This document shows positions 1 to 35,137 of a stretch of DNA of 64,000 bases, one piece after another (positions within the stretch are counted from its first letter, which is position 1; each line of letters begins with the position of its first letter). The notes under the pieces are model-generated. The model was given only the letters and a program-made list of their open reading frames with translations, did not search any database and was not told the DNA's origin. The position numbers and the translations under genes were made by a program. Source of the stretch: a virus. The stretch is from the IMG/VR virus record IMGVR_UViG_3300046812_000287, positions 1-64,000 of that record. One strand, 5' to 3'.

Positions 1-1949
1 TAGCCGATGAAGTTGGAAGGGAAAGCCATCCCATAGTCGCCCGGAGTTCCGCCGGTGCCCGCCGCCGTCAGTGTCGTGCCGGCGGTGTTGATGCTGGGTG
101 ACCCGGAGACGGACGTGAGCACGTCGCCAACCCCGTAGGTAGCGCCAGCGCCGCCGACAGGCTCATGGAACGAGAAGTCGTCCATCCCGCCGCCGGAGCC
201 AACGTGGAAGCTGTACATCGAGGGCGTGGTGCCGTGGCCGCCGGTGAAAGACTGCGGGTAGTTGTAGCCAACGCCGCCGTACCAGCCCGCCACGCCGCCA
301 GAGCCAGGACTGGAGATCGTCAGTTGGTGCGTGATGCCCTCGAACGCGTCCGTCTGGGCGAAAAACCCAAAGGAGCCGACCGACGGGTCGAAGTGCGCGA
401 TGACGTTCCCCGTGGCAGTCACGTCGTTCGAGTTGTAGAAGTTAATGGCCGTGCCTAAGCCGGTCCCGAAAGGGGAAGCAGTCGTCATGATGGTGTTGTT
501 ATTGACAACCGTCCTGCTGTCCAGAGCCGGCATGCCCTCCTCGTGGCCGATGTCCAGTCCGTAGCTTCCACCGCGAGTGAAGTTGTCCTCGATGATGCCG
601 CCCGATCGGTACTGGATGCACTCCGATGCACTTTTAACGCTGCCGTTACCGCGCCGATTGCCAAAGAGGGTGTCCCACTGTATGTATACGTTCCGACTGC
701 GAGTATCGCCTACAGTGAAAGCAGGGTCATTAAAGCCACATGAATAAATCCAGTTCTCCTCGAAGTTGAAGCCGGCGCCCATGTCGTTGCCGCTAGCCGC
801 AGCCTTGATGTCATCGAACACCATGCCGATGGTGTGGCCCGGCCCGGTCGAGTAGCAGTGGTCAGCCTGGCAGCGCCTGACGTTCACGTCGAAGTTACCT
901 ACGTTAAAAGTAATGCCAGAGGCAAAGAAGCTCGTGCGACAATCTTCGATCAAGGAGCCTGTCTGAAAGCCACTATGGCTAATACCTACGTTATCGACTG
1001 CATTTCCCACTCCGACATAGGCACCGCTGTTCGGGTCACGCTGCGCGGCGTAAAAAACAATTCCCAAGATCGCAACGAAGTTCCCACCGCCGACCATGTT
1101 CATACCTGAGCGACCCTCAAACCCGTGGTGGTTGCCGGCACCTTGCGTAATGGCGTAGGCGCTGGTCGCGCTGGGAACGACGATGATCGGACGTGCCCGC
1201 GCTCCGAGGTTGGGCGTCGTCGTCGGAAAGTTCTCGTCATACCCAGCAACGACGAATGGCTCCTGCTCGGAGAAGCCGTTGAACTGGAAGTTGTCGGAGC
1301 CGTTGCTCGCGTCGAACGCTTTCTCCAGGCACTGGCCAGTGAAGGTATCGCCCATCCTCAGCAGCACCCAGTCCGGGAAGCCGGTGCGCGCCCCGAAGCT
1401 GTTGCCTGCGCCCAGCGTCCCCAGCCCGGTGCCGTCGCCGGTGGTCGGGGAGTTGTGATCCAGGTCGTACGCGCCCGGGCCGGTGCCTCCGAGAGCCTTG
1501 ATGAGCGTCTTCACCGGGCCGTGGATGCCGGTCGTGTGAGTCGGCTGCGAGCCGTCCCACAGGTCGGAGCCGAGGGAGTCAGACACGAATATCTTATTAG
1601 TGTGCGCGCCGCTCGGCAGCGAGCCGTCGCTGGGCCCGATGGTCGTCCAGCCCGCGTCGCCCTGGTCTGGTCCATAGACACCGATCGTAAGGCCAGGAAC
1701 GATAACGCCCCAGCTCACGTTCTTGGACGCCGGGTAGACGACGCCGTTGACGGTGACGGAGAGGTTGATGGTGTCTGTCCCGTCGGCCACCTTGGTTGCC
1801 ACGCAGGTCAGCCCGTCGACCGCGGGGTCCAACGTCTCGGTCGCTGGCGTCGTGTTGCTCCAGTCCGGCGGGGAGTCTGGCGTCGGCGTCACCAGCATCA
1901 CGTTGCCGCGCTGGTCCTTGTATTTGATTGAAAGGTTGATGCCGCTCAT
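1..1949 (-). CDS. Beta-helix tail spike / pectate-lyase-like protein (C-terminus cut by window edge)
   Basis: The minus frame stays open from an ATG at 1949 to the window edge, giving at least 649 residues with no stop. The N-terminal part (about residues 1-75) is an Ig-like domain closely matching the small protein at 4141-4611; both contain the stretch SPP-W-TTPAT. The remainder is rich in Gly, Asn and Ser and reads like a right-handed parallel beta-helix, with short strands ending in Asn or Gly turns such as VVNNNTIMTT and ATGNVIAHF. Such folds are typical of phage spikes and depolymerases. The start codon overlaps the stop of the gene before it (TGATG). The catalytic part, if any, cannot be judged because the C-terminus is missing. 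Inferred role: adhesion to, or digestion of, host surface polysaccharide. Confidence 0.75.
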   Translation of the reverse strand, partial: MSGINLSIKYKDQRGNVMLVTPTPDSPPDWSNTTPATETLDPAVDGLTCVATKVADGTDTINLSVTVNGVVYPASKNVSWGVIVPGLTIGVYGPDQGDAGWTTIGPSDGSLPSGAHTNKIFVSDSLGSDLWDGSQPTHTTGIHGPVKTLIKALGGTGPGAYDLDHNSPTTGDGTGLGTLGAGNSFGARTGFPDWVLLRMGDTFTGQCLEKAFDASNGSDNFQFNGFSEQEPFVVAGYDENFPTTTPNLGARARPIIVVPSATSAYAITQGAGNHHGFEGRSGMNMVGGGNFVAILGIVFYAAQRDPNSGAYVGVGNAVDNVGISHSGFQTGSLIEDCRTSFFASGITFNVGNFDVNVRRCQADHCYSTGPGHTIGMVFDDIKAAASGNDMGAGFNFEENWIYSCGFNDPAFTVGDTRSRNVYIQWDTLFGNRRGNGSVKSASECIQYRSGGIIEDNFTRGGSYGLDIGHEEGMPALDSRTVVNNNTIMTTASPFGTGLGTAINFYNSNDVTATGNVIAHFDPSVGSFGFFAQTDAFEGITHQLTISSPGSGGVAGWYGGVGYNYPQSFTGGHGTTPSMYSFHVGSGGGMDDFSFHEPVGGAGATYGVGDVLTSVSGSPSINTAGTTLTAAGTGGTPGDYGMAFPSNFIG

Positions 1950-2383
1950 CAGAAGAACACGGCCTCGATCTCAACGGACGTCAGGACTTGGTCAGTGCTG
2001 ACCACGCTCGGGGTCGCGCCCGCCAGAGCCAGCGACTGCGCGTCAGGAGACAGCTCTGGAGAGGACTTAACCGCGGTCGGGGCGTCACCAGCGAGCGCCA
2101 TCGCTCGCGACCCGGGAGACAGGTTGATAGTAACGGTATGAGCGACGATGGGCGAGCTGCCGACAAGCGCCAGCGAGCGCGACCCGGGGGCTACGCTGAT
2201 GTTGTTCTTAGCCTTAGCCTTTGACGCCCTCGGGTACATGGGTACGTGGAACGTCGGCGCGTTCGAGAACGGCATGATGCCGTGGGACGGCCACGGCTTC
2301 CCGGAGCGCCGGTCGACGTACGGCACGGGGTTACGCCCCGGGCCGTACCAAGTCAGCGTCTGCGTGCCGTGAGGCAGCAGCAT
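1949..2383 (-). CDS. Small virion protein with three LALxGxxP repeats
   Basis: The chosen ATG at 2383 gives 144 residues and follows a perfect AGGAGG six bases upstream; the frame is open further upstream to 2482 but without as good a site. The C-terminal half carries three copies of a roughly 22-residue repeat with cores SLALVGSSP, AMALAGDAP and SLALAGATP. The same repeat occurs about 18 times in the 522-residue protein at 54301-55869. The last residues (QVLTSVEIEAVFF) resemble the end of the 4141-4611 protein (QVLTSIVIESVVS). It lies between the portal-side genes and the spike, so a capsid or spike-associated structural role is likely. No enzymatic motif is seen. Confidence 0.65.
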   Translation of the reverse strand: MLLPHGTQTLTWYGPGRNPVPYVDRRSGKPWPSHGIMPFSNAPTFHVPMYPRASKAKAKNNISVAPGSRSLALVGSSPIVAHTVTINLSPGSRAMALAGDAPTAVKSSPELSPDAQSLALAGATPSVVSTDQVLTSVEIEAVFF

Positions 2384-2430
2384 CTTAGCCTCCTGGGCTC
2401 GCAGCTGGGCGAACGGGTCGCTCACTCTTC

Positions 2431-2586
2431 TCAATAGTTCTCGTTGTTGATCTTCTCGATGACCGTGGGCCATATCTCCCACAGGCCGTCGTCCGGCTCA
2501 CCCGCCAGGGCCTGCGCCAGAGCCGCCTGCGGCGTGGCGGCCTCCTCAAACAAGACCTGACCGTTGTGAAGCAAGTAGAAGGTCAT
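2431..2586 (-). CDS. Small protein of 51 residues after the portal
   Basis: The ATG at 2586 overlaps the portal stop codon (ATGA), the usual junction in this gene chain. The product is acidic and begins MTFYLLHNGQ, with a middle stretch rich in Ala and Gln and an aromatic end (LWEIWPTVIEKINNENY). It has no membrane segment and no recognised family. The translational coupling and codon use similar to its neighbours support it as a real gene. Confidence 0.6.
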   Translation of the reverse strand: MTFYLLHNGQVLFEEAATPQAALAQALAGEPDDGLWEIWPTVIEKINNENY

Positions 2587-4106
2587 TCGACTTCCTCAAA
2601 AGTGATATGCGGCTGTGTCAAACTAGCATCCTGCGTCTGCTGTGTTACCTGCTTCATCGGAGGCGGCGCGCCAAGCCCAAGCTTCGGCGCAGCGGCGGCC
2701 AGCGGCTTGCCGGTGACCGGGTCGTATCCGGGCGACCAGACACGCGCCTCGACCACCTCCGGCTCGGAGCCGTACTCGTCTATCGCGTCCTCCAGGCCCG
2801 GGTAGGTGCCGTCCTCGATCAGCTGGTTAACGGCCGCGTCGCGTAGAACGTCCTCGTTGATGATGCCCATGGTGACGTAGACCTGGGTGGTGTCGGCCTT
2901 CACCTTCGCGATGTCCGCCAGCTCCTTGGGCTCGGAGTTGTAGAGCGGCGTCCAGGCGTAGTGGACGTTGTCGTCTGGACCACCGAGCGCGGACCTGATA
3001 ATCACCTGGTCTAGCAGGTCGAGGCGCGGCGTCAGCTCCGTGCGCTGCTCAGCCGACACGCCGTCGTAGTAGTTGCGCAGCTCGTCCTGGCCGGAGGAGG
3101 ACTTGCCGAGGCCCTTGCTGCCTGCCTTCCCGAACAGGCGCGACACCGGGAGGTTGGCCGCGCCGGCTACGATAGTCATCAGCTCCGTCAGCAGGTTGGG
3201 CAGACCGCCGAAGTTAGTCTGGATGCGGTCCCATTCCTCCTCCTTGTCGAGCAGTAGGGAGTTGATGCTGGACTTAGACTGGTTGGCGGCGGCGAAGCGA
3301 GTGTAAAGGCGGTTGGCGTATTCCTGGGTCGCGATGTTTTTCGAGAAGTCCGGTATCTTGACCACGTCCATCTTGGCGTCGTTGACCATCGCGGCTATGC
3401 CGCCGACAGTCAGGCCCCACTGGCGCAGCGTGTCGTCCATCGTCTGAAGGACGGAGTCGCCCCAGCCTCCGCCGAGCGGCGCGAGCCGCCAGTCGGGAAG
3501 CTCGTTCCCGACCAGCTCGATCACGCGCGAGGGGTGGACGCGCGTCATCACAGAGTTCATCGCGGTAGGGTCGGCGCCCTTCGGCAGCGGCTCCTCGACG
3601 CCGGAGATAGGCGTCTGGACGGTGTAGTACTCCGGCCGCGTGTACCAGTCGCTGTTCACGTCGTAGATGCGCGGGCCAGCGGACAGCTCGTAGCGGTTCA
3701 TCACCACCAGAAATCGCAGCGCGTCCTTCCCAACCTTGTCGAGGTCGAGCGGCTCGTCGGCCTGGTTCCCGTCCTCCACGCCCATCACCAGCGCGCCGCC
3801 GCCGTAGAGGCGTGCGCGTATGATCGCGTTCTTCAGCTTGATCTGCAGCCGGAGCTTCTTCTCCAACGCCTCGATGGCGGTGATCTTATCGCCGTCAGCC
3901 TGCCAGTCGCGCCAGTTGGACGTCATGTCCTCCGCCGGCGCGTCCACGACCCGCCGCGCGATCCAGTCCGCGCGATAGGCGTTCTCCTGCTGGATGCGGT
4001 TCAGCAGGTTCAACGTGTAGTCGGACGAGCGCGACGGGTCCTTGAACGTGCCAAGGCCCGAGACGAAGTTGATCAGCGAGTCGCGTAGGTAGTGGACAGC
4101 GCCCAT
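2583..4106 (-). CDS. Portal protein, DUF1073 type
   Basis: The 507-residue product has the length and composition of the DUF1073 (anti-CBASS Acb1-like) portal family. The N-terminus has NLLNRIQQENAYRADWIARRVVDAPAEDM, split across residues 33-61, where these portals carry a 'Y..dwia.kivd.pa.dm' signature. A central LYGGGALVMGVEDG segment and a later LPVSRLFGKAG-G---SGQDE region are also characteristic. The portal forms the dodecameric ring through which DNA enters the capsid and to which the tail joins. The C-terminus is rich in Pro and Gln, as is usual. It follows terL, as expected for a head module, with several small genes in between. Confidence 0.88.
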   Translation of the reverse strand: MGAVHYLRDSLINFVSGLGTFKDPSRSSDYTLNLLNRIQQENAYRADWIARRVVDAPAEDMTSNWRDWQADGDKITAIEALEKKLRLQIKLKNAIIRARLYGGGALVMGVEDGNQADEPLDLDKVGKDALRFLVVMNRYELSAGPRIYDVNSDWYTRPEYYTVQTPISGVEEPLPKGADPTAMNSVMTRVHPSRVIELVGNELPDWRLAPLGGGWGDSVLQTMDDTLRQWGLTVGGIAAMVNDAKMDVVKIPDFSKNIATQEYANRLYTRFAAANQSKSSINSLLLDKEEEWDRIQTNFGGLPNLLTELMTIVAGAANLPVSRLFGKAGSKGLGKSSSGQDELRNYYDGVSAEQRTELTPRLDLLDQVIIRSALGGPDDNVHYAWTPLYNSEPKELADIAKVKADTTQVYVTMGIINEDVLRDAAVNQLIEDGTYPGLEDAIDEYGSEPEVVEARVWSPGYDPVTGKPLAAAAPKLGLGAPPPMKQVTQQTQDASLTQPHITFEEVE

Positions 4107-4140
4107 CAGCTGTGCATGACCTCCAGGTCGATGGTCAACG

Positions 4141-4611
4141 TCAGGACACCACCGACTCGATGACGATGGACGTCAGCACCTGCGGAGCCGGGTCGTACTC
4201 GACCGAGACAGTAGCGGTGAAGCTTACGGGACTTCCGCCCGGCTGCGGGACGGCGACGGCTACGACCGTCACGCTGTCGGTGCCGCCGGCATCGTTGGCG
4301 GACGTGAGCACGTTCGACGTCCCGTCCGCCGACACGGCCATGGTGTCGGTCGCTGGCGTCGTCTGAGTCCACGCCGGAGGCGACTCGTACTTCACCGGCG
4401 TCAGCATCGGGTTGCCCTTGCCGTCCAGCTGCTTGATGGTGTTGGTGATCGTGTGGCCTACGGTAGCTTGTACCATAACGTGGGTCTCCTTCTCGGGTTC
4501 AATTAGGATGTTGAAAGTTGACTTGTCCTTGCCGCTGCCGACCCCGACCGTAAGCAGCAGGTGGTGAAGCTTCTGTCGTGGCTGCAGCCACCATGGCTTC
4601 TCTTCTTGCAC
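4141..4611 (-). CDS. Ig-like structural protein related to the spike N-terminus
   Basis: The GTG at 4611 directly follows the stop of the upstream gene and has a GAGG site five bases before it, giving 156 residues. A second possible start is the ATG at 4476 (111 residues), behind GGAGA. About residues 55-145 form a beta-rich Ig-like domain matching the start of the spike at 1949, sharing SPPAWTQTTPATDTMAV against SPPDWSNTTPATETLDP. The stop lies 34 bases before the portal start, whereas almost every other junction here overlaps. In the -1 frame a short reading (VLTLTIDLEVMHS) does reach the portal ATG with a TGATG overlap, so a frameshifted longer form is possible. Confidence 0.65.
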   Translation of the reverse strand: MQEEKPWWLQPRQKLHHLLLTVGVGSGKDKSTFNILIEPEKETHVMVQATVGHTITNTIKQLDGKGNPMLTPVKYESPPAWTQTTPATDTMAVSADGTSNVLTSANDAGGTDSVTVVAVAVPQPGGSPVSFTATVSVEYDPAPQVLTSIVIESVVS

Positions 4612-4845
4612 CTAAGCCTCACCAACCGACACGTTGATGTCGGGCTGCGCGGAGGCGACGACGCGCAGCTGGAATAGCGCGCAGGCGTCGTCAGTCGCGC
4701 CGACAATCGGGCGAATGAAGCTAGCAGACTTCGCGCCGTTCTTCGACTGCAACATAAGCTGCGGCGGACCGCCCCAGCACTGGCGGACCTTAATGTCCTG
4801 CGGGACGAGATGGCCGAAGCGGCAGTGGGCACAGGTAGGGGTCAT
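4612..4845 (-). CDS. Small Cys-containing protein, 77 residues
   Basis: It begins MTPTCAHCRFGHLVPQDIKVRQC and overlaps the upstream gene by ATGA at 4842-4845. A CxxC pair at residues 5 and 8, followed by more Cys residues, could bind a metal, but a full zinc-ribbon spacing is not evident. The C-terminal part (ALFQLRVVASAQPDINVSVGEA) looks like beta-strand. The function is unknown. Confidence 0.55.
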   Translation of the reverse strand: MTPTCAHCRFGHLVPQDIKVRQCWGGPPQLMLQSKNGAKSASFIRPIVGATDDACALFQLRVVASAQPDINVSVGEA

Positions 4846-4976
4846 TTGGAAAACCACAAACAGATTGCGGTTAGCAGCAACACAGCTGGAAGAAAGGCCC
4901 CCAAGAAAATCAGGAACCAAGTCAAGGACCTTAGCTGCTGCTCACATAACTCTCTAACAGGATCATTCTTCATCAT
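4842..4976 (-). CDS. Tiny single-pass membrane protein, 44 residues
   Basis: The frame starts with a double ATG (4976 and 4973) overlapping the upstream stop, and its own stop overlaps the next ATG. A short charged N-terminus is followed by one hydrophobic helix from about residue 19 to 42 (TWFLIFLGAFLPAVLLLTAI). It is followed by CLWFSK at the C-terminus. It is unusual to find it between terminase and portal genes. It could be a small holin-like or superinfection-exclusion protein, but nothing decides this. Confidence 0.55.
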   Translation of the reverse strand: MMKNDPVRELCEQQLRSLTWFLIFLGAFLPAVLLLTAICLWFSK

Positions 4977-5203
4977 GACGCACCCATGACGCGACTTCCT
5001 CTGGCACTCTGCTCACTGCGCCAGCCTGGTAAGACTACCTCATTAAATTTGCCAACTGCCGTCTTCGCCTCCAAGATGCCTTTCAAATGGTCAATACGCT
5101 CTTGCATCACTTTAATTCTCTTCATCATGAGATGACGCTCGATGCCGACGCCAAATAGGAAACCTGAGATGAATATGAGAAGCATACTGATAACTAATAT
5201 CAT
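4973..5203 (-). CDS. Small membrane protein with cytoplasmic coiled-coil-like helix, 76 residues
   Basis: The ATG at 5203 overlaps the upstream stop (TCATGA). Residues 1-21 form a strongly hydrophobic segment (ISMLLIFISGFLFGVGI), followed by a charged helix (ERHLMMKRIKVMQERIDHLKGILEAK) with a coiled-coil-like pattern. It forms a translationally coupled pair with the 44-residue membrane protein downstream. The family is not recognised. Confidence 0.6.
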   Translation of the reverse strand: MILVISMLLIFISGFLFGVGIERHLMMKRIKVMQERIDHLKGILEAKTAVGKFNEVVLPGWRSEQSARGSRVMGAS

Positions 5204-5598
5204 GACGCGAAGTCCCCCGCGTTGATGGCCGACATTCGCTGCTCCATGCCGTAAAGCCTATCCGTCATGTCGTCCTGCTTGCGCATCTGGTCGTCGCCGT
5301 GGAACTCGCGCAGTCGCGCCAGCAACAGGTCCCTCTTTCCAACACTTGCGCGGCCGTCTTCGCCCCAGAACGCTTCAGCATCTTCCGGTATCGACGGATA
5401 ATTATTACTTGGTCGCTTCGCCCGACGAGCGTGGGCTGGGATCATGCCGCGCAGCTTCCCCTCTTTCCAGAACTCATAGACCTGCCAGAGAGGTATCCCG
5501 ATGTCGCGGCCTATCTCACAGGCCGGCTGGCCAGCATCGAACCACCCTAGCACTGCCCTGTTGAACTGAGACTCTGCGTCTGCATTTCTTCTGTTCAT
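5200..5598 (-). CDS. Helix-turn-helix protein next to terL, 132 residues
   Basis: The ATG at 5598 overlaps the terL stop (ATGA) and follows AGGGGA; the open frame upstream of it is the terL region read in another frame. Residues 10-45 (AVLGWFDAGQPACEIGRDIGIPLWQVYEFW) have the spacing of a helix-turn-helix DNA-binding unit like those in small terminases and resolvases. The rest is charged and helical. It might assist terminase in DNA recognition, since a second DNA-binding protein beside terL is unusual, but the role is unproven. Confidence 0.6.
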   Translation of the reverse strand: MNRRNADAESQFNRAVLGWFDAGQPACEIGRDIGIPLWQVYEFWKEGKLRGMIPAHARRAKRPSNNYPSIPEDAEAFWGEDGRASVGKRDLLLARLREFHGDDQMRKQDDMTDRLYGMEQRMSAINAGDFAS

Positions 5599-6929
5599 GG
5601 TACTAGTCCCCTGGCCCATGCGTCCTGTGCGTAACGGCTGCGAGGGTCGTCCTCGCGCCGTACCTTGACGTCGCCAACCCACTTCAGCGAGCTGTCGTAG
5701 CTGGAGCGCTCCGCCATCAGCTGGTGCATCACCGCCAGCGCGAGCGCGCACACGCAATCGTCGTGCAGCCCCTCCGGCGCGGAGTAGGCGATGGAGCTGC
5801 GCCGGTACTCATACTCGAACTGCTCCAGCTCGACCCTGATCGGCCCGTCAGGGAAACCGACGCTGCCGGACTGGATGGCGACCGCGAGGCCTTCCATCAA
5901 CTTCTGCTTCGACGGCGCGGTGAACTGGTAGCCCTCGAAGTTCGCGCCGTCGTTCTTCTGCAGCAGCTCGACGATAGGGTCGCCGACGCCGGTGGAGTCG
6001 ACCAGCGCGGGCGCCGACCCGGTGACCAGCGCGATGCGCCGCATGCAGTTGTCCCATGGCAGCTGGAAGCGCTCAAACCGACAGACATGACCAAAGGTGT
6101 CGAGCGCAACTCCGACCGTCCAGTCCTGGTGCTTCGCGAGGTCCCAGCCCCAGACGTCAGGCTCGTTTCCTGACAGCGGCCTAACGCAGCTCGCTATCGC
6201 GGCCAGTCCGAACGGGTTGCCCTGGTCGTCGCTCGCCTCTGCCATGTAGAGTTCGCGGAACACAGCCTCAGGAAGCAGGCGCCGCGCGTCGTCGACCTCA
6301 CTCGCGTTCAGCACGCCGGCCTGGATGGCGTCGTCGACCACCAACTTGTGGTAACCCATCGACGGGTCACCAAGCTCAGCCATGCGCGCGAGGCGATAGA
6401 ACCAGTTCTGTCGGCCGCGCACGTTACCGATGATGCGGATCGGGCCGCGCGTCGCGGTCAGGGTCGAGCGCACCGCGTGCCAGCTGTCTTCCTTGAAGCG
6501 CGAGGCCTCGTCGATCACCGCCGCGTGGACGTCGTCGCCGTACAGACTGTCAGGGTGATCAGCAGACTTGAACCAGATAGTAGAACCAGTCAACAACGTG
6601 ATGGTCTTCGCGGTAAGATTGACCTCAACATGCTCAGGCGGGCACGCGCGCACCGTCCTGCGAAACGCGATGTCGGCCTGCGTGAACACAGGCGCCACCC
6701 ACCAGAAGTTCTGGCCGCCCTTGCCGCCCAGCGCCTTCTCGACCAGCCACGCGATGGCGCCGGAGGTCTTGCCGGACTTGGTACTCGCCTCGATGACGGA
6801 GATGCGATGCTCGTCGAAGATGGCCGCCAGCTGCTTCGGGTACAGCGGAGGCCGCGTGTACTCGATGCGGCGGCGCTTAGGTTGCGCGCTGTCAACTGGC
6901 TTGGCCTTAGTGCGCGCTACCGTTGCCAT
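5595..6929 (-). CDS. terL: Terminase large subunit
   Basis: The 444-residue product is the packaging motor. The ATPase domain has a Walker A (ASTKSGKT, residues 48-55) and a Walker B with its catalytic acid (AAVIDE, 136-141). It also has a coupling-motif-like region (IRIIGNVRG, about 164-172). The C-terminal RNase H-like nuclease shows the expected acidic positions: D263 in WGWDLA, D311 in VDSTGVGD and the pair in LHDD at 388-391. The start overlaps the terS reading frame by 23 bases. It cuts and translocates concatemeric phage DNA into the prohead together with the portal. Confidence 0.93.
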   Translation of the reverse strand: MATVARTKAKPVDSAQPKRRRIEYTRPPLYPKQLAAIFDEHRISVIEASTKSGKTSGAIAWLVEKALGGKGGQNFWWVAPVFTQADIAFRRTVRACPPEHVEVNLTAKTITLLTGSTIWFKSADHPDSLYGDDVHAAVIDEASRFKEDSWHAVRSTLTATRGPIRIIGNVRGRQNWFYRLARMAELGDPSMGYHKLVVDDAIQAGVLNASEVDDARRLLPEAVFRELYMAEASDDQGNPFGLAAIASCVRPLSGNEPDVWGWDLAKHQDWTVGVALDTFGHVCRFERFQLPWDNCMRRIALVTGSAPALVDSTGVGDPIVELLQKNDGANFEGYQFTAPSKQKLMEGLAVAIQSGSVGFPDGPIRVELEQFEYEYRRSSIAYSAPEGLHDDCVCALALAVMHQLMAERSSYDSSLKWVGDVKVRREDDPRSRYAQDAWARGLVP

Positions 6930-7335
6930 TGATCATCTTCATCGGCTTGTCGCTCACCTGCTGCGGCTCCGCGCCGAACAGTATGAAGTTGAATATCGCC
7001 GTCGCGTCGTCGCCAGCCTTCACAGCGACAGCGGACAGGCGCGGGTGGACGTAGTTGGCGGCGTCGGTCGCGCACTGCTGAGCCTTCATGCGAGCTTCAC
7101 CAAATGAACGAAGGGCAAAAACAGCGTCCTTATCCCCTCTATCAACAAGTTCCTCGACACGATGGAAAAGTTCCTCGGCACTTGAAGCATAGAACCGCAT
7201 GTTGTCAAGCATGATGTCAAGCGGTGACATCCCACTCTCAATCGCTCGATCAGCAACAGCACGAAGCGCGGCGGTGCGCTTGTTGACGCCGCCCTTCTTC
7301 CTACCGCCACCTGCTCTTGCGCCGCCTCTTGGCAT
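6907..7335 (-). CDS. terS: Terminase small subunit
   Basis: The 142-residue protein opens with the basic Gly-rich leader PRGGARAGGGRKKGG, which is typical of many small-terminase-like proteins. A helical DNA-binding region follows (residues 18-90). It directly precedes and overlaps terL. TerS recognises the packaging start site and regulates TerL. The assignment rests mainly on the leader and its position. About 90 bases separate it from the NusG-like gene and show no clear signal. Confidence 0.75.
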   Translation of the reverse strand: MPRGGARAGGGRKKGGVNKRTAALRAVADRAIESGMSPLDIMLDNMRFYASSAEELFHRVEELVDRGDKDAVFALRSFGEARMKAQQCATDAANYVHPRLSAVAVKAGDDATAIFNFILFGAEPQQVSDKPMKMINGNGSAH

Positions 7336-7424
7336 TTGAAATCTTATGTTAGACTTTTCATAGCTGCCGCTCCCGACATCAGAATGCGGGGCACACCGGA
7401 CAAACTTGTGGCAGACAGGCCTAC

Positions 7425-7889
7425 TCAGACGGCTGCCAGGTTGTCCTCGTCAATCTTAACTCGTCGCTGCGCACCGAGCCACCTCAACAGAACAAACGCG
7501 CGGTCGCTCCCGCATTGGCCATTATAAATCGCCAACTGTTGAGCAAACACACCGCGTTGAACTTGAACAGTTTGATTTTCGCGAAACCTTCTTTGATCGA
7601 GCTTCACCAAGCCGCCTACCTCGCGCGCACGAAGTTGATCGATAACTTCTTGGGAGATAGTCGCGGGTTGCTCCACACCCGACATCAACAACCGAACAAT
7701 GCCCTTCGTCGCCAACAACGCTCGCCACCGCTCCGCGATAGCCGCCACAAACATATAATTTGGAAACAATTGAGCGATGCGACCGGAGGAACGAAGCTTA
7801 ATGCGCGGGTTGTAGTAAACAAACTCCTGCCGCTCCAAATTAACGGAAGCGGTCGCGGGTGCGTTTGTTTGTACGACTGACCAAGCCAA
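7425..7889 (-). CDS. NusG/RfaH-like transcription elongation factor
   Basis: Starting at a TTG (7889) behind GGGAGA gives 154 residues beginning AWSVVQTNAPATASVNLERQ, which aligns directly with the NusG N-terminal domain. The LFPNYMFV motif (residues 41-48) matches the conserved F-P-x-Y-x-F-V of NusG. TKGIVRLLMSG (61-71) matches the 'T.GV..fv' segment. The C-terminal part (about 105-150, with RGVFAQQ and VLLRWLGAQRRVKID) matches a KOW domain. These proteins bind the RNA polymerase clamp and suppress pausing or termination. The open frame continues upstream to 8135, but that part does not look coding. Position before terS suggests control of late transcription. A specialised host-derived NusG paralogue in a phage is uncommon. 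Confidence 0.82.
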   Translation of the reverse strand: MAWSVVQTNAPATASVNLERQEFVYYNPRIKLRSSGRIAQLFPNYMFVAAIAERWRALLATKGIVRLLMSGVEQPATISQEVIDQLRAREVGGLVKLDQRRFRENQTVQVQRGVFAQQLAIYNGQCGSDRAFVLLRWLGAQRRVKIDEDNLAAV

Positions 7890-8152
7890 GCCCGAAAGTC
7901 TCCCAACCAGAGAGGTCGTCTCTCGGCTGAAGGGTTTACGCCCAAACCAGCCCGAGCGCAAAATGTTTTCTTCCAAAAACCAAAAGCCAAAAAATGGCCA
8001 ATTCCAGGAACCCCTTCCCCTTCTTTTATTTTTAGAAGTTGAGTCTAGGGTTGTGAGAAAGACCTGAAAAATGGTTTTTGGTATTTGGCTATTCGATTGG
8101 TCTTTCTCTTGAGCGATCAATAATTTGAACGGCATCTCCTAACCTATTGGTT
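7890..8152 (-). promoter_or_regulatory. AT-rich leader before the NusG-like gene
   Basis: This 263-base gap between the primase stop and the NusG-like start is richer in A+T than its neighbours and contains repeated AAAAC/CCAAA runs. A small inverted repeat GAGAG-GTCGT-CTCTC lies at 7910-7924, just upstream of the Shine-Dalgarno GGGAGA (about 7899-7904). It could hold a promoter for the terminase operon or a translational control hairpin. No convincing -35/-10 pair was found. Confidence 0.35.
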
Positions 8153-10450
8153 TCAGATTTCTAGGAAGGCCCGGAGGTCCAAAGGGAGCCTCCCGGACTT
8201 GACAAAAGTGGAAATCAGGACCCCAGTTTGGTCCTTTTTGGGCACCAAAACCCTCGATCCGGACCCGGAAAGCTTCCAAAATGGTACCGTCGAGGCCCTA
8301 TTTTCGTTAATAGACCACCCTTTCGTCCTCGCTATCTTGCGAACGGTGAGCGGTTTTTCCAGCCGGTCGCTCTGCCGGCCCTCGTAAATCTGGTCCTTGA
8401 TCAGGGCTACGAGGTCCGTATCGAGGATGATTACATTGTCATCTATTTTGAGAGAGCGCGACCCGTTCGCTCCCTTTCCTACCCACCGCTCCGCCTTCGG
8501 TTTCGCTATCTCCTCGTTTATTTTATCAAACAACCTCGCCACGAGCGCCATGCCGGGTGAGTATCCCTCTTCGACAACTTCCGCTTTCGTAGTCGACCAC
8601 GGAGCACTATCCCCGCGCAGGACTGGCACCTCCTTCTTCAGCCATTCTTCCGCCCACCACTTAATAATCCCTAGCCCGCCCTGCTCGCTCAACCACGCAT
8701 TAAACTTCATCCAGTATTCCGGAGGCGACTTCTCCTCAGTCACCTTCGGCACGAACCACCGTCGATCATCCCCCGACAGCTGAATAGCGCGCATCGAGTT
8801 AGAGCACGCAAAGATGTGCATCCAATTCTCGACATCATAATTCGCCATGTACTTCTTCGAGACCGTCACAGTGCGATCAGTGATAATCGACTTCAGCTTA
8901 TTGTAGGCCTTTGAGGAGTGGCCCGCGTAAATCTCGTGCACGACTGCAAGCCTCTTGTGGGCTAGCCAGTAGTTGAAATTTGATTCCACGATCTCATTTT
9001 CAGTCGGCGTGGACACATTATCCTCCCCCACAAGCGGCGCCAGGATTTTTTCACCCAGCGTGCCCTTCCCTATTCCCTGCGTCTCGGAGATCAACAGCAC
9101 TCCATATAACATCTTAATGTCCGGGCGCGCGATAAGCGTCGCGCACCACCTCATTAGCTCCTTCCGGTCGCCTTCCCCCGGCACCAGCAGCTCCATGAAC
9201 TCCAGCCAAGGCCCCGCGTCCCCTTTCTCCGCTTTAATCTCCGAGGGCACGTGCGTATTTATAAAGCGTCCGTCGTGCCCATAGATGCCGGATGTTTTAC
9301 CTGGATCATATTTCAATGTGGCGCTCTTCGAGGCCGCGTCCTTCTTAAGCAGCCGCCCGGTATCGTCCACATCCGAGAACGGCGCGGCCTTATTATTGAA
9401 CTCCGGCAGCGTCCATATCTTGTTGGGCCATTCCTTATGGATGAAAACTTCCGGCTTCACGGCGTGCACCCACTCCTCCTTAAAAGCCTCCTTCAATATT
9501 GCCACCGGCCGCCCCTTCCCGCCCTCCGGAGGAATTAGTGTGGTCGCGTAGGTCGCGAATTGAAACAAGGACCTGAGCGTCGGCCCCACGAACCTCCCCT
9601 TGATAAACATATGATCCGGCAACGGGTCCGCCATGTCCCAAGACATCTTAAAGTGCTTGCCGAACATTATGCCTTTCATCGAAGCCCCGTAGTTCTTCGC
9701 GACTTTCTGGAGCGCTGATTCTCCCGGGGGATCGTTGTCGCATACGTAGATCACCTCGACCGGGCGCTCCGCTTTCAATTCGGCATAGTCCGTCCGGTGC
9801 GGCGCGAGCGCCCCGCCGATCATCCCCCAGTGTTCATACAGCCCCAGCACTTCGCCCCACGGGTGCGCCTTAAGTCGCGCTGCGTCTTGGGTAAGATCAT
9901 GAACAAATTTAGCTGCCTTACACCCTTCATGAATCATAATGCGCGGCTTCATCTTCCTTTCTGGTTTCCAGAATGGCAGCGCTCCATCCGGCTCCAGGTC
10001 GCGCCACTCCCCATCGTCCCAGAACGAATGCGAGACAAAGTATTTCGCCCCGCCATCAGTGGGCGTGCGCCGCTCCTGCACCATCTTTATCAGCCCACTC
10101 GGCCGCTCTAATAGAGCGAAGAACCTCCCGTGGTCGCCCTTTTGCCGGCTAAGCCAGTCTCTATAGCTCGCCGCCGTCGCGCCGACCGAGCGCGGGAACT
10201 TCACCCCTTTGAACCCGGCCTTTATGTCTTCCTCTTCCTCCTTCGTGGGGGCGTGGTCCTTCCGGGAACAATCTATGGACCCGTCCGCCGCGATCTTGAT
10301 CAGCGTGCGCTCTATATAATAGGCGTCGCCCTTAGAGCGCTCCTTAACCATGGCCCGCCTAAACGACAACAACTCCGCTCCGACCCGGTTCAAGTAAGCC
10401 ATCAGCGCCGGCACCCCGGCCACGGCCGCCACTTCCTTCTTTTTAGCCAT
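8153..10450 (-). CDS. Primase-helicase (TOPRIM plus SF3-like D5 helicase, DUF5906 type)
   Basis: The 765-residue protein combines a TOPRIM region with a viral SF3-like helicase. The TOPRIM part is at about residues 168-260, with the Glu of IMIHEGCKAA at 171-180 and the acidic VCDNDPPG at 236-243. The helicase Walker A is SETQGIGKGT (455-464). The later segment FACSNSMRAIQLSGDDRRWFVP is the hallmark of the DUF5906/primase-helicase group. TOPRIM primases make RNA primers, and the helicase unwinds the fork. The start follows CAGGAGA and is read from the divergent control region. It lies apart from the polymerase, which is on the other strand. Confidence 0.85.
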   Translation of the reverse strand: MAKKKEVAAVAGVPALMAYLNRVGAELLSFRRAMVKERSKGDAYYIERTLIKIAADGSIDCSRKDHAPTKEEEEDIKAGFKGVKFPRSVGATAASYRDWLSRQKGDHGRFFALLERPSGLIKMVQERRTPTDGGAKYFVSHSFWDDGEWRDLEPDGALPFWKPERKMKPRIMIHEGCKAAKFVHDLTQDAARLKAHPWGEVLGLYEHWGMIGGALAPHRTDYAELKAERPVEVIYVCDNDPPGESALQKVAKNYGASMKGIMFGKHFKMSWDMADPLPDHMFIKGRFVGPTLRSLFQFATYATTLIPPEGGKGRPVAILKEAFKEEWVHAVKPEVFIHKEWPNKIWTLPEFNNKAAPFSDVDDTGRLLKKDAASKSATLKYDPGKTSGIYGHDGRFINTHVPSEIKAEKGDAGPWLEFMELLVPGEGDRKELMRWCATLIARPDIKMLYGVLLISETQGIGKGTLGEKILAPLVGEDNVSTPTENEIVESNFNYWLAHKRLAVVHEIYAGHSSKAYNKLKSIITDRTVTVSKKYMANYDVENWMHIFACSNSMRAIQLSGDDRRWFVPKVTEEKSPPEYWMKFNAWLSEQGGLGIIKWWAEEWLKKEVPVLRGDSAPWSTTKAEVVEEGYSPGMALVARLFDKINEEIAKPKAERWVGKGANGSRSLKIDDNVIILDTDLVALIKDQIYEGRQSDRLEKPLTVRKIARTKGWSINENRASTVPFWKLSGSGSRVLVPKKDQTGVLISTFVKSGRLPLDLRAFLEI

Positions 10451-10595
10451 AGTCTTCTCCTGTTATTACGCCAGGCTGCTCTTATCGCTCTTTTCTCCCC
10501 TAACCAAAATCTTTATTTTCCTGTTTAAAGAAAACACTTTCCAAAACAGTTTTTATAGGGCAGGCTCCGTTTCGGAAGAGGAAAGGACGGCTAAT
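10451..10595. promoter_or_regulatory. Divergent AT-rich control region with an inverted repeat
   Basis: This gap separates the minus-strand primase from the plus-strand early genes, so it should contain promoters for both. It is AT-rich compared with its flanks. An inverted repeat CTGTTT (10521-10526) and AAACAG (10544-10549) with a 17-base spacer could be an operator. A TTTTATAGGG stretch at 10551-10560 could be a -10 element for the plus strand. The region is also a candidate replication origin, but no iterons were seen. Confidence 0.45.
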
Positions 10596-11141
10596 ATGAC
10601 TGACAAGATCGAAGCCCTTCGCCAGAAGGCGGCGCATGCTCGCGACCTGGAGCTGGTCATCTCTGATCTAGAAGGGCAGCTGAAAGAGCGAAAGCAAGAG
10701 TTGCTTTCACTCTACCACACGACCCTCCCGGAGCTGATGGACGAGGCGGGCACCGATCGTATCGGTCTGCCGCCCCAGGGGAACTCCCCAGGGATGGACT
10801 TCGTGATGAAGCCCTACTTCTCCGCGTCCATCGCGGCCTCCTGGCCCCCGGAGAAGCGCGACGCCGCCTTCGCCCTCCTGAAGAGGCTTAAGGCGGAGGA
10901 CCTGATCAAGACGGAAGTTAGCACAAAACTTCCCAAGGGCTCCTTGTCCCTCGCCAAGAAGATAGTCACCGCCATCAAGAAGCTCGGCCCTAAGGCCGAC
11001 CTGAAGCAGTCCGTCCACTCCGGCACCCTGGGCGCCTGGCTCCGCGAAATCTACGACGGCGGGCAGGCGCTCACGTCCGAGCAGCTCGCGACCCTCGGCG
11101 CCTCGGTCGGCCGCGTCGTCCGCCCCGAGGAGCGCAAGTAA
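10596..11141 (+). CDS. Conserved early phage protein with N-terminal coiled coil
   Basis: The 181-residue product starts after AAAGGA. Residues 1-45 form a heptad-like helix (IEALRQKAAHARDLELVISDLEGQLKERKQELLSLY). The C-terminal part (LKQSVHSGTLGAWLREIYDGG) resembles a family common in phage replication or recombination modules, whose members end with a similar 'vhp.TLkafvre' segment. That family has no firmly established biochemical role. As the first gene of the plus-strand unit it is probably expressed early. Confidence 0.65.
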   Translation: MTDKIEALRQKAAHARDLELVISDLEGQLKERKQELLSLYHTTLPELMDEAGTDRIGLPPQGNSPGMDFVMKPYFSASIAASWPPEKRDAAFALLKRLKAEDLIKTEVSTKLPKGSLSLAKKIVTAIKKLGPKADLKQSVHSGTLGAWLREIYDGGQALTSEQLATLGASVGRVVRPEERK

Positions 11142-11221
11142 TGAACTTAACTTCACGCGACTACTTCGCCGCTCGGGCGCTCGTCGTGAACTTTGAGACA
11201 CTCTTAACCACAGAAGGATGA
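11141..11221 (+). CDS. Possible 26-residue peptide between two early genes
   Basis: A short frame begins at an ATG overlapping the upstream TAA, with GAGGAG eight bases before it, and ends in a TGA overlapping an ATG at 11218. It reads MNLTSRDYFAARALVVNFET and then six more residues. The overlapping junctions match the style of this genome, but a frame this short may be chance. Confidence 0.25.
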   Translation: MNLTSRDYFAARALVVNFETLLTTEG

Positions 11222-11226
11222 CGACC

Positions 11227-12090
11227 ATGGCAACTGCCCTGAAGAAGAAGCCCAAGCAGGAGGTTGCGCGCCGCGCGGCCTCTACCCTGGCAACCCAAGA
11301 GGGGTTACCAGCCCACCTGCGCTCCTACGAGTCGACCGGCGCGGGCGTCCCGTCCGACGCGAAGGACTTCCTGCTGCCGATGGCGAAGGTCCTGGACGCC
11401 AAGTCCCCGGAGTGCGAGAAGCGCGGACCGAACTATGTACCCGGCGCCGAGGCCGGCGACATCTTGCTGAAGAACGCCCCGAACCCCTTGATCAAGGGCG
11501 ACCAGGGCTTCCTGTTTCAACCCTGCTACCGCGAGGCCGCGGTGATCGAGTGGCTCCCGCGCACCAAGGGCGGCGGCGGCGGAGGCGGGTTCGTCGCGCG
11601 CCACCCGGAGGACTATCTAGAGACCTCCAACGACAAGGTCCAGCGCCCGCACCCGGAGAACCCGGCCAAGATGGTGTGGTACCGGAAGTCGACCGGAAAT
11701 TTGTTGGTTGAAACTCGATATGTCGGCGGGTACATGGTCGGTGAGGACGGCGACGAGCCTCTTCCGCTCGTTCTTCCCTTCTCCTCCACCGGCCACACCG
11801 TCGCGAAGCAGTGGAACATGCTCATCGCCTCGAAGCGCGTCAACGGTGCCAAGGCCGACATATGGCTGGTCTACTACCGGGTCGCCACGCGCCTCAAGGC
11901 TCGACAGGACCAGTCGTGGTACCTGTTCGACGTCGCCGACGCCGGCCCGGAGAGGAACGGCCTGCCGACCACGATGTGGGTCCCCACGGCGGAGGACGCC
12001 GAGCGCGGACGCAACCTCCACGAGAGCCTCGCCTCCGGCGCCCGCCAGTTCGCCCAGGATGAGGGTCCCGCCGACAACGAAAAGATGTAG
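11227..12090 (+). CDS. Conserved early phage protein, possible ssDNA-binding/recombination partner
   Basis: The second ATG (11227) is preferred over 11218 because AAGG lies nine bases upstream of it, giving 287 residues. The N-terminus is basic. A GGGGGGG run near residues 119-125 precedes the segment FVARHPEDYLE. The central part (VRWY-like MVWYRKSTGNLLVETRYVGG and PLVLPFSSTGHTVAKQWNMLI) is of a kind seen in phage proteins encoded beside recombination or single-strand binding genes. The C-terminus is acidic (FAQDEGPADNEKM), as in many single-strand binding proteins. The exact function is not known. Confidence 0.6.
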   Translation: MATALKKKPKQEVARRAASTLATQEGLPAHLRSYESTGAGVPSDAKDFLLPMAKVLDAKSPECEKRGPNYVPGAEAGDILLKNAPNPLIKGDQGFLFQPCYREAAVIEWLPRTKGGGGGGGFVARHPEDYLETSNDKVQRPHPENPAKMVWYRKSTGNLLVETRYVGGYMVGEDGDEPLPLVLPFSSTGHTVAKQWNMLIASKRVNGAKADIWLVYYRVATRLKARQDQSWYLFDVADAGPERNGLPTTMWVPTAEDAERGRNLHESLASGARQFAQDEGPADNEKM

Positions 12091-28257: not shown

Positions 28258-29012
28258 GAGCGCTGCTAGTCGCCGCCCTGCTCGCGCCGCAGCTCGCGAC
28301 CGCCGCCGACCTGTCGGTGCCGCCGTCGGTGCTAGACCTGCCGAAGCACTACGACTGCCCGCTGGCGCAGGACGACGACGCGGTCCTGGCCGCGCTCCTC
28401 GATCTGGCGTTCCCCGACGTCATCCACCCGGAGGACGAGGACATCAACTGGGACGTCGTCAGGTGGCTTGAGTCGCGCATATTCTGCGTCAAGCCGGACC
28501 TGCTGGTGATAGCAGATGATGAGGAAGGGAGCTTCGGAGGCGGGAGCTTCGGAGGTGGCGGAGGCGGGAGCTTCGGAGGCGGGAGCTTCGGAGGCGGGAG
28601 CTTCGGAGGCGGGAGCTTCGGAGGCGGGAGCTTCGGAGGCGGGAGCTTCGGAGGCGGGAGCTTCGGAGGCGGGAGCTTCGGCGGAGGCGGAGGCGGAGGC
28701 GGAGGCGGAGGCGGAGGCGGAGGAAATATGACCCCAACTAACCCGCCGCATGTTACCCCTCACATGCCGACGCCGCCGGCCACCCCGCTGCCCGGGTCAA
28801 TATGGTTGTTTGCCTCTGGGCTGTTGCTTCTTGCCTTGACAAAGGTAGCGCGCCGCGTCCCGTCTCGTCCACCGGGAGGGGTTGATGTCGAGTTGGGGTC
28901 GCGGCGCGCGCCTAGCGATCGACGGGAGGAAACACGTCGACCGATAGCTAGTGCCCCTGGAGTGCCTTCAGCTGGGAGGACAGCTCCAGGACCTGGTTGT
29001 CGATGCTCTTGA
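28254..29012 (+). CDS. Exported Gly-rich repeat protein with PEP-CTERM-like end
   Basis: The ATG follows TGGAGG and gives 252 residues. Residues 1-18 are a signal peptide (MRALLVAALLAPQLATAA). Residues about 92-158 are GSFGG repeats and a poly-Gly run. Residues 178-201 (PLPGSIWLFASGLLLLALTK-VARR) form a Pro-Leu-Pro, hydrophobic helix and basic cluster, as in PEP-CTERM/VPLP sorting signals. Unlike typical sorting signals, about 50 more residues follow, rich in Arg, Pro and Ser, overlapping the convergent gene's end by 65 bases. It probably goes to the cell envelope. The role is unknown. Confidence 0.65.
   Translation: MRALLVAALLAPQLATAADLSVPPSVLDLPKHYDCPLAQDDDAVLAALLDLAFPDVIHPEDEDINWDVVRWLESRIFCVKPDLLVIADDEEGSFGGGSFGGGGGGSFGGGSFGGGSFGGGSFGGGSFGGGSFGGGSFGGGSFGGGGGGGGGGGGGGGNMTPTNPPHVTPHMPTPPATPLPGSIWLFASGLLLLALTKVARRVPSRPPGGVDVELGSRRAPSDRREETRRPIASAPGVPSAGRTAPGPGCRCS
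28527..28723 (+). repeat. 15-bp and 6-bp tandem repeats inside the Gly-rich gene
   Basis: The 15-base unit GGGAGCTTCGGAGGC occurs in near-perfect tandem from 28527. One variant carries a 9-base insertion (28542-28565), and seven uninterrupted perfect copies lie at 28566-28670. A GGAGGC 6-base repeat then runs to 28723. All units keep the frame. Such arrays change copy number by slippage. Confidence 0.9.
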
Positions 29013-32779: not shown

Positions 32780-33288
32780 ATGCCTGGGACCTTCATGCGG
32801 GCGCTGACCATCAGGAGGAGGTCACGCGGATTGATTAGGTGCGCCGGAGCTGCGACCGGCCAAGCTAGCCACCCGCACTTGCGCAGCGCCAGGGCGATCT
32901 TCGCGGAGCATATCGCGTGGTCGGCTAGGTGGAGGTGCTCCGGCAACACGAAGCCGACGATGGCCTTCCAGTCGTAGGGCTCGCCGATGCTGTCATTCAG
33001 GTACTTGTAGAAGGTCGCGTCCATCGTTCCGCCGAGGTCCAGGACCATGTCGCAGAGGCCGGCGGGAAAGGCCACCGGGTCGTAGCCGTCCGGCAGCCGC
33101 GCCACCTTCCCCGCGTCATAGCCGACCGGGCGAGCCTGGGTGCCGCCGTCCAGGCGCGACCCGACGTAGGACAGCCCGTCCGGCGTCAGCGCCTCCACGT
33201 GGCTGGGGGTGAATGGCATGCACGTCTTCTCCTGGAGGACTATTGCCTCGCTCCCCCAGCCGGTTCCCCGGACGAACCTTATCTTCAT
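32776..33288 (-). CDS. NlpC/P60-like (YiiX-type) cysteine hydrolase
   Basis: The 170-residue protein has a His in TPSHVEALTPDG and a Cys in HAICSAKIALALRK. This is the permuted order seen in YiiX/NlpC-P60-like papain-fold proteins, where the conserved Cys comes after the His. YDWKAIVGF is also typical. These enzymes cleave peptide or amide bonds, often in peptidoglycan or lipids. It lies between the sugar cassette and the endolysin. Confidence 0.6.
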   Translation of the reverse strand: MKIRFVRGTGWGSEAIVLQEKTCMPFTPSHVEALTPDGLSYVGSRLDGGTQARPVGYDAGKVARLPDGYDPVAFPAGLCDMVLDLGGTMDATFYKYLNDSIGEPYDWKAIVGFVLPEHLHLADHAICSAKIALALRKCGWLAWPVAAPAHLINPRDLLLMVSARMKVPGI

Positions 33289-34466
33289 ACCGCATCTCCC
33301 TGGCCAGTAGCGATGGCTAAGGGTTGCCCGGCCGGTAGAATGGCGCCTAAGGTAGCCGGCCCCTCGTTAAGCCCTACTCCGGGCATCCCTAGGCCTAAGA
33401 AATCGACTCCGGGGCGCCCCAGGAGGTCGCCCGTCGCCCCGGACAGGCTCCGGACGCGTCCGAGGTCCGCCTTGTGGGTCCCCCAGGCCCTCCAGAACGC
33501 CTGGCAGGCGACCCAGCGGGTCTTGCGGACGAAGTGGTTCCGGGCCACCTCCATGGGCACCCCGCACAATAGAACGTGGGAGGCCCCACGCTCTATCGCG
33601 ACCTTGGCGGCGAACAGGCCCGAGGACCCACCCCAGTCCTTCGTGGTGTGGGTGATGAATGGGTGGTTGGCGCGCCGGTTGTGGGCCCATACCTCCTTCG
33701 GGTCCGGGTGGTGGCCGGACCGGCGCAGGCTGAGCCATGCCGGTATCTTGTCCGGATGGAGGGAGGCGACGACGCACTCGCCCGGGAAGGTCGCGATCAT
33801 GTCGTTGACCACGATGAACTCCGGCTGCGCCCCGGCCGCCGCGCACAGCGCCCGCGCCTCCTCGACCTCTGCCCAGACGCCCTCCGCGCCTCCGACCACG
33901 ACCGTGACCCTAGAAGTAGAATTGGTCAAGCTAGCTGCTTGGCCAATTCTAGTTCCCTCGAAGACCATCGACTCGATGGCGTTGAATTTCTCGCCGATGA
34001 CGCGGTGGTGGCCCTCGACGTTCTGAAGATCGGGGTGTTGTGAGTTGTGAACCTCGCACTGGGCCGCGTCGAAGCCGACGAACTTGAGCGTGGCGGCCAT
34101 CAGCGAGGCGGTCCAGCAGGTACGGTGGCCGTGGCAGTTGATGATGGCGTCCAGCGCGCCGCGCAGGTCGGGCGTCTTGCCCCACTTGGCGGCCAGCTTG
34201 AAATAGTCATCATCGGTCGACCTGCGCACCTGCTCCACGGACGGGACCGTCACGCGCAGCACGCCGCCGACCGCCAGGACGCGCAGGCACTCGCGGAAGA
34301 ACTCGACGGCCTGGTAGTAGTCAACGTGCTCCACGCAGTGCTCGATGAAGATGAAGGAGACTGAGGAATCACTAAACGGAAGACGTTTAGTGATATCTAA
34401 GTCAGCGTCGTGGTTCTCCCAGCCGGGGAGCTTGTTGGTGCCGCACCCGAGGTTGAGCTTCAGCAT
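33285..34466 (-). CDS. Methyltransferase fused to DUF115-like domain
   Basis: The ATG at 34466 begins MLKLNLGCGTNKLPGWENHD, a class I methyltransferase SAM site. It is followed by DLDITKRLPFSDSS, EHVDYY and LRVLAVGGVLRVTVPS. About residues 200-393 form a second domain (VTVVVGGAEGVW, EFIVVNDMIATFPGE, SSGLFAAKVAIERGASHVLL and CGVPME), which resembles DUF115/MptE-like Rossmann proteins. The DUF115 family includes Maf-type flagellin glycosyltransferases. The methyltransferase part has a close paralogue at the end of the 37702-39987 protein. It may modify a sugar or a virion glycan. Confidence 0.68.
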   Translation of the reverse strand: MLKLNLGCGTNKLPGWENHDADLDITKRLPFSDSSVSFIFIEHCVEHVDYYQAVEFFRECLRVLAVGGVLRVTVPSVEQVRRSTDDDYFKLAAKWGKTPDLRGALDAIINCHGHRTCWTASLMAATLKFVGFDAAQCEVHNSQHPDLQNVEGHHRVIGEKFNAIESMVFEGTRIGQAASLTNSTSRVTVVVGGAEGVWAEVEEARALCAAAGAQPEFIVVNDMIATFPGECVVASLHPDKIPAWLSLRRSGHHPDPKEVWAHNRRANHPFITHTTKDWGGSSGLFAAKVAIERGASHVLLCGVPMEVARNHFVRKTRWVACQAFWRAWGTHKADLGRVRSLSGATGDLLGRPGVDFLGLGMPGVGLNEGPATLGAILPAGQPLAIATGQGDAV

Positions 34467-35137
34467 CTGTACAGTCCCTCGCGCAGGTCGTCGCGGGCGA
34501 AGATCATATTGTTCACCGCCCACGAGTGGAGGAAGTAGCCGGCCCCGTCGAGCAGCTCCTTCAGTTCCTTGGCGATGCTTCGGTCGGCGGTGAAGGCCTC
34601 AGCGCAGACCACCTTAGGCGTCGACGAGCTGCCCCAGTCGACGCTGCTCAGTATCTCCACGTCCAGGCCCTCGGCGTCGACGTTGAGCAGGTCCGGGAAC
34701 TCGCCGCCCGCGTGCTCAGTTATTAGTTCCGTGACGGTCGTCATTGGCACGTCTATCTCGGACGCGATGGCGTACTTGGAGGCCAGCGAGTGGTCGAACG
34801 AGCTCAGCCCCGGGGCGGTGGTGCGGTAGAAGCGACGCCCGCGCAGGTGGCCGGTGACGCCGGCGCAGATGTTCTTGTCCTCCGGTCGCAGCCTGGTGAA
34901 CTCCTCCATCAGGTCCGGGTTGGCCTCCACGTTGATGCCGCGACCACCGCGCTCGTACATCAGCGCCGTGTTGCTCAGGTGGTACGGGTGGTGCGCGCCG
35001 ATGTCCAGCCAGGACGGGTGGTATATCTTCAGCTGGTGGAACATCGCCAGCATGATCAGGTCGTCACCGTGCTGCGCGTAGGTGAAGCCGCCGAACACCT
35101 GGTCCTTGTGGTCGCTCCAGGGGAGGTCGTGCCTCAC
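34460..35137 (-). CDS. FkbM-family methyltransferase
   Basis: A GTG at 35137 overlaps the preceding stop (GGCGTGAGG), giving 225 residues. WLDIGAHHPYHLSNTALMYE and GGRGINVEANPD are the FkbM SAM-binding pattern. DLLNVDAEGLDVEILSSVDW is the second signature. FkbM enzymes O-methylate sugars or small molecules. It sits in the sugar cassette next to a glycosyltransferase. Confidence 0.82.
   Translation of the reverse strand: MRHDLPWSDHKDQVFGGFTYAQHGDDLIMLAMFHQLKIYHPSWLDIGAHHPYHLSNTALMYERGGRGINVEANPDLMEEFTRLRPEDKNICAGVTGHLRGRRFYRTTAPGLSSFDHSLASKYAIASEIDVPMTTVTELITEHAGGEFPDLLNVDAEGLDVEILSSVDWGSSSTPKVVCAEAFTADRSIAKELKELLDGAGYFLHSWAVNNMIFARDDLREGLYRC

Follow-up and report, generated by a model that had tools for sequence, protein, structure and literature searches.

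An RfaH-like NusG paralogue and an ops-like element ahead of the terminase genes in diverse phages

RfaH-type factors of bacteria typically act on polysaccharide operons, and the ops element of E. coli reads GGCGGTAGCGTG. In E. coli RfaH, the pocket that receives the flipped T6 base is formed mainly by H20, R23, Q24 and R73 (PMC5995543). The nearest functional parallel in the literature to the locus described here comes from GafZ (PMC11150451), which antiterminates the terminase-led gene transfer agent cluster of Caulobacter and does not belong to the NusG family. A search of the open-access literature, with subscription papers and most preprints outside its scope, found no paper tying a NusG-family protein to a phage terminase or late operon, and an RfaH/ops-type reading of phage late operons is largely undescribed.

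The DNA analysed here (the window) is a stretch of 64,000 nt, comprising bases 1–64000 of the 71,869-base IMG/VR record IMGVR_UViG_3300046812_000287. Its NusG-like protein resembles E. coli RfaH in having an NGN and a KOW domain, and in that the leader transcribed ahead of its long same-strand operon contains an ops-like core. It differs in sequence (29–31% identity), in the length of the beta3-beta4 loop (13 versus 19 residues) and in setting, since the phage gene heads its own operon in cis and the payload consists of packaging and virion genes. The NusG-SP/RfaH-like proteins of alphaproteobacteria and plasmids belong to the same family (25–33% identity) and show the same arrangement of gene, element and long operon, but theirs precede polysaccharide genes whereas the viral ones precede terminase, and their loop is a constant 19 residues while that of the viral proteins varies from 7 to 23. 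With the phage factors Q and N, and with GafZ, the common ground would be the outcome, in that a late operon headed by terminase genes is antiterminated processively; these are unrelated proteins, of which Q and GafZ load promoter-proximally and N at nut RNA. LoaP and UpxY are likewise specialised NusG paralogues encoded beside a long operon, but the window protein scores far under the cut-offs of both (LoaP, NF033641, 15.0 versus 125 bits; UpxY, NF033644, 29.6 versus 100 bits).

The NusG-like gene and its product

The gene occupies positions 7425–7889 on the minus strand and encodes 154 aa from a TTG start, with a Shine-Dalgarno-like GGGAGA about 9 nt upstream. Starting instead at an in-frame ATG (8135) would lengthen the protein by 82 residues, none of them similar to NusG, and is unlikely. 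The preliminary description, made from the letters of the window, had recognised a TTG-started product with the NusG N-terminal domain and a KOW domain, and had proposed structure prediction and a profile search against NusG and RfaH; both of these return the NGN/KOW fold. Pfam NusG (PF02357) matches residues 2–87 (E = 1.9e-9), its 38.4 bits clearing the cut-off of 22.2. The best curated model is NCBIfam RfaH (TIGR01955, E = 1.2e-22), for which the score of 80.6 bits lies under the equivalog cut-off of 144.5 bits, and the housekeeping NusG equivalog (TIGR00922) gives 23.6 bits where 135.7 are required. In PHROGs the protein matches phrog_6386, 'transcription antiterminator' (8e-7), so phage NusG-like proteins are already present in that collection. 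There is no sign of Phage_antitermQ: Pfam finds only NusG in the protein, and PF06530 is absent across the record.

An AlphaFold2 model made with 23 viral relatives (pLDDT 93.5) consists of an NGN domain and a KOW domain predicted as a beta-barrel, a single predicted state that is compatible with a fold switch. RfaH and NusG rank first when the model is searched with Foldseek and VIA-align; the top VIA-align match is the NTD of E. coli RfaH (8pen, Z 13.0, 2.1 A over 90 residues), and the C-terminus is matched by the KOW domains of NusG and RfaH. By its NGN domain and KOW beta-barrel the protein belongs to the NusG/Spt5 superfamily; it is one of the specialised NusG paralogues, among which it stands closest to RfaH. 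The feature that marks NusG-SP, an extra NusG-family gene tied to one long operon, is found at this locus.

Compared with RfaH, the protein keeps R23, Q24 and T72, whereas of the base-contact residues K10, H20, R23 and R73 three are substituted (K10 to N, H20 to N and R73 to K). In RfaH the fold-switching KOW domain is autoinhibited as an alpha hairpin, with a bridge between E48 and R138; the window protein retains R138 and has alanine at the position of E48. The E48A variant of RfaH is constitutively active (PMC13015549), and the loss of E48, together with the KOW domain predicted to be open, suggests that the window protein may be constitutively open.

The late gene chain and its conservation among viruses

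The start and end of the record are bridged across 50 bp by a sister contig that is identical to it over 14.9 kb, so that the genome is circular or permuted, with a length of about 71.9 kb. The late chain lies on the minus strand and runs from 7889 to 1 and then from 71869 to 31051, the distal part within the window (31051–64000) being reached across the record ends. It is 98.4% covered by minus-strand ORFs, and the largest gap is no more than 159 bases. The preliminary description had placed the gene in a nearly gapless, same-strand chain of roughly 35 kb; strand and near-continuity stand, and the length is corrected to 48.7 kb. The order of genes is the NusG-like gene, the putative terS (6907–7335), terL (terminase large subunit, 5595–6929; Terminase_6C/6N; phrog_2, 5.8e-33), portal (2583–4106; phrog_146, 8.7e-112), a protein ending in an ADP-ribosyltransferase domain, the major capsid protein (63288–64000, continuing to 64427 in the record; phrog_264, 1.6e-86) and the tail tape measure protein (47919–50747; phrog_3547, 6e-17), all on the minus strand. 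The claim that the gene directly precedes terS and terL holds by profile for terL; terS is assigned by position, its product matching phrog_15261, of unknown function.

The late-chain protein between portal and capsid (record positions 67139–70423, L002:11140–14424, minus strand) is 1094 aa long, with its ADP-ribosyltransferase domain (ADPrib_exo_Tox, 9.2e-8) at the C-terminus. Sugar-nucleotide and modification genes are found in the distal late chain at 33285–41620, also on the minus strand, and include a methyltransferase (33285–34523), an NAD-dependent epimerase (35832–36755), a GHMP kinase (36695–37705) and a radical SAM/SPASM protein (40520–41620). Upstream of the NusG-like gene, a minus-strand leader of 263 nt (7890–8152) separates it from a primase gene on the same strand (8153–10450; phrog_1156, 1.1e-27), and the plus strand carries genes for a DNA polymerase and a UvrD-type helicase. 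Predicted RNA structure in the leader and in the nusG-terS gap does not exceed that of shuffled sequences, promoter and terminator scans over 1–11000 gave results at chance level, and the terS start lacks a clear Shine-Dalgarno sequence. A search for a phage single-subunit RNA polymerase gave no match but was uninformative, as its controls were silent.

Peptides of the window protein, used as queries, matched only the identical sister. Viral loci were collected with alignments seeded with plasmid relatives, giving 28 and then 80 loci, and were selected by the NusG-like protein alone. PHROGs scans placed terL 3′ of the gene in many of them (phrog_2, 9, 38, 15 and 3717). With local HMMs, terL was detectable in 64 unique loci and was downstream on the same strand in 63; it was within 5.2 kb in 61 (median 1.06 kb), which represent 47 clusters at 50% identity, farther downstream on the same strand in two, upstream in one and never on the opposite strand. 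The terL families found behind the gene are mutually unrelated. Of the 69 loci that offered 4 kb or more of sequence past the gene, 13 showed no terL there, and some of these 13 are probably host polysaccharide loci. In the close relatives L039 and L047, phrog_11143, of unknown function and similar to an ABC transporter family, is among the genes behind the NusG-like gene (8456–11652) in place of terL, and in L071, a longer cut of the L039 contig, terL is found 8.4 kb downstream.

On the protein tree the window protein falls within an all-viral clade of 26 members (SH-aLRT 83), and the several exchanges between viral and bacterial branches indicate that capture probably occurred more than once. 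Relatives of the window terL (44–63% identity) lack the NusG-like gene in the sequence available for them. This makes it an accessory gene, and one that is dispensable for late operons of this kind, given that close terL relatives manage without it. Absences from the six-frame Pfam NusG scan carry little weight, since that scan was silent on the window's own record even though direct hmmscan and TIGR01955 match the protein. Five queries of INPHARED (50,697 records) gave no cultured-phage relative; the matches were to Salmonella rfaH, on contigs of bacterial origin, and to a single faecal record lacking annotation. Two Salmonella bacterial contigs standing among the phage records (AFYI01000004.1 and AGRM01000003.1) provide the sole annotated RfaH matches there. 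A single-protein scan with L095 recovered only L095 itself.

The ops-like element and its covariation with the protein

Unbiased 8-mer counts near the gene were headed by GCGGTAGC, the core of E. coli ops, which occurs at 16 loci against 3.4 expected and at none on the opposite strand. Expectation-maximisation without an ops seed returned gtGCGGTAGCnt (LLR 84 versus 51–61 for four shuffles). Motif discovery on the reverse complement was dropped as a control because it returns the identical motif, and strand counts were used instead. The form GCGG[TC]AGC has a density of 2.79/kb within 100 nt 3′ of the stop codon (17 hits at 17 loci), a 25-fold enrichment over the background of 0.11/kb, and of 0.67/kb in the 300 nt 5′ of the gene; on the opposite strand these two stretches contain none and one, respectively. 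Downstream copies mostly lie 38–93 nt past the stop, while another group of loci carries the element just 5′ of the gene, and many viral members do not have it. At one locus (L112) the exact twelve-base E. coli ops is found at the stop codon of the NusG-like gene. None of 17 terL relatives without the gene has a same-strand element in the sequence upstream of terL, of which up to 1.5 kb was covered.

In the window, the ops-like element GAGCGGCAGCTA (7361–7372, minus strand; core GCGGCAGC at 7363–7370) sits in the 89-base gap between the NusG-like gene and terS, 58 nt after the stop codon of the former and 27 nt before the latter, and has C at the T6 position recognised by E. coli RfaH. At background density the chance of a match within 100 nt is about 0.011, so the argument for this single copy draws its strength from the family. 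The preliminary description had suggested a search for such an element, which has proved to be a strand- and position-specific feature of the family. A second ops-like octamer, GGCGGTAGGAA (7298–7308, minus strand), is inside the 5′ end of terS and may be a mere run of Gly-rich codons. The exact E. coli ops consensus does not occur in the window. Counts of one-mismatch ops matches were rejected, being inflated by a coding repeat at 28.5 kb, where the 15-bp unit GGGAGCTTCGGAGGC is repeated in tandem about 10 times (28527–28723, plus strand) and is followed by GGCGGA repeats.

Bacterial counterparts show the same signal. Relatives of the protein were found in 64 of 289 alphaproteobacterial genomes at 1e-20, and about a third of thirty such loci carry an ops-like element 52–106 nt past the gene; since these loci were not part of motif discovery, they support the motif independently. 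No terL was detected in 16 larger alphaproteobacterial regions, and at the six loci tested the genes following the relative are of polysaccharide type (DegT aminotransferases, Polysacc_synt_2, ABC exporters and epimerases). The comparison suggests that phages took over a pre-existing module of gene, signal and long operon.

Across 77 viral proteins, the column of RfaH Q24 is the protein column best associated with the element, with Q at 32 of 33 element-bearing loci and at 8 of 44 others (7e-13, a p value inflated by kinship; the supported independent pairs number only four to five, too few for significance). The runner-up column in the whole protein reaches 2e-6. A held-out set of 51 new viral proteins, sharing less than 90% identity with the old set and among themselves, was then scored against predictions fixed beforehand, and three of three advance predictions came true. 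In each of the 45 held-out loci with terL, the terminase gene follows downstream on the same strand, in 41 of them within 5.2 kb. The element accompanies nine of ten Q proteins and four of 41 non-Q proteins (2e-6, the Q group being small), and on the opposite strand it occurs at one of the 51.

A different signal is found in a clade around L033–L036, L040, L068 and L075, whose proteins mostly lack Q24. About 60–115 nt past the NusG-like gene, a hairpin is followed by an invariant GCAGCGCG (L033, L034, L035, L036, L040, L068, L074, L075 and L094). Within +1 to +130 this combination is present at 10 of 61 loci, and once on the opposite strand. Five of the 12 predicted base pairs of the hairpin show pair-preserving double changes. 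As judged from sequence, the hairpin and GCAGCGCG may represent an alternative loading or pause signal.

Proposed mechanism and alternative explanations

The reading that we consider probable is that the phage uses its specialised NusG paralogue, loaded at an ops-like element, to let the host polymerase finish the late operon. Family, predicted fold, synteny, element and the covariation between element and pocket support it at the sequence level; polymerase binding, recruitment, antitermination and ribosome coupling would follow the example of E. coli RfaH. Host RNA polymerase, having just transcribed the gene of the factor, would pause at the core element (7363–7370) before terS, where the NGN domain would capture it via the exposed non-template strand. 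The factor would stay on the polymerase, displacing host NusG and keeping Rho off. Polymerase modified in this way would resist pausing and Rho and would transcribe the terminase, portal, capsid, tail and distal genes to the end, and the KOW domain may bring in ribosomes as in RfaH. Points that speak against this reading are the C at T6 in the window's element, the three substituted base-contact residues, the low power of the Q24 association when phylogeny is taken into account, and the close terL relatives that do without the gene.

The likeliest alternative, itself improbable, is that the protein acts host-wide, competing with NusG or blocking NusG-Rho, and so relieves the silencing of foreign DNA with no need of an operon signal. 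A NusG-type protein that has lost E48 and has a predicted open KOW domain, like RfaH E48A, would suit this role, as would the many viral members in which GCGG[TC]AGC is missing, but the tight placement ahead of terL and a strand-specific element on one side or the other of the gene favour use in cis. It is more doubtful still that the main target is the distal sugar-nucleotide cluster (epimerase, GHMP kinase and methyltransferase), with the terminase neighbourhood secondary. Such genes are indeed present at 33285–37705, and the bacterial relatives precede polysaccharide operons, but what is constant across the family is terL directly behind the gene, whereas the sugar genes are more than 34 kb away. 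Least probable is that an rfaH gene of host or plasmid origin was picked up recently and rides along with no role in the phage: RfaH-like genes are reported from plasmids and prophages (PMC7593976) and the closest terL relatives do not carry the gene, but the all-viral clade, and the recurrence of placement and element in dozens of divergent phages, argue against it, and conserved synteny largely refutes it.

Loading of the paralogue at an ops-like element remains the preferred explanation. The RfaH-like reading given in the preliminary description is supported overall, with antitermination proposed by analogy, and the observation behind it is confirmed as real and stronger than was claimed there. 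Whether many phages have swapped Q/N-type late control for a captured RfaH/ops module, with the loading signal itself exchanged (GCGG[TC]AGC for Q proteins, hairpin and GCAGCGCG for the Q-less sister group), is an evenly balanced question. If they have, this class would show how the recruitment specificity of a NusG factor has evolved in nature. The covariation of a pocket residue with the element offers a direct handle on how NusG-family factors read the non-template strand. Under the preferred explanation, the module would represent a compact processivity switch for long operons. The ops code would widen from a few enterobacterial targets to many divergent viral and alphaproteobacterial loci, and phages would have a further route to late-gene expression beside Q-like antiterminators, phage polymerases and sigma factors.
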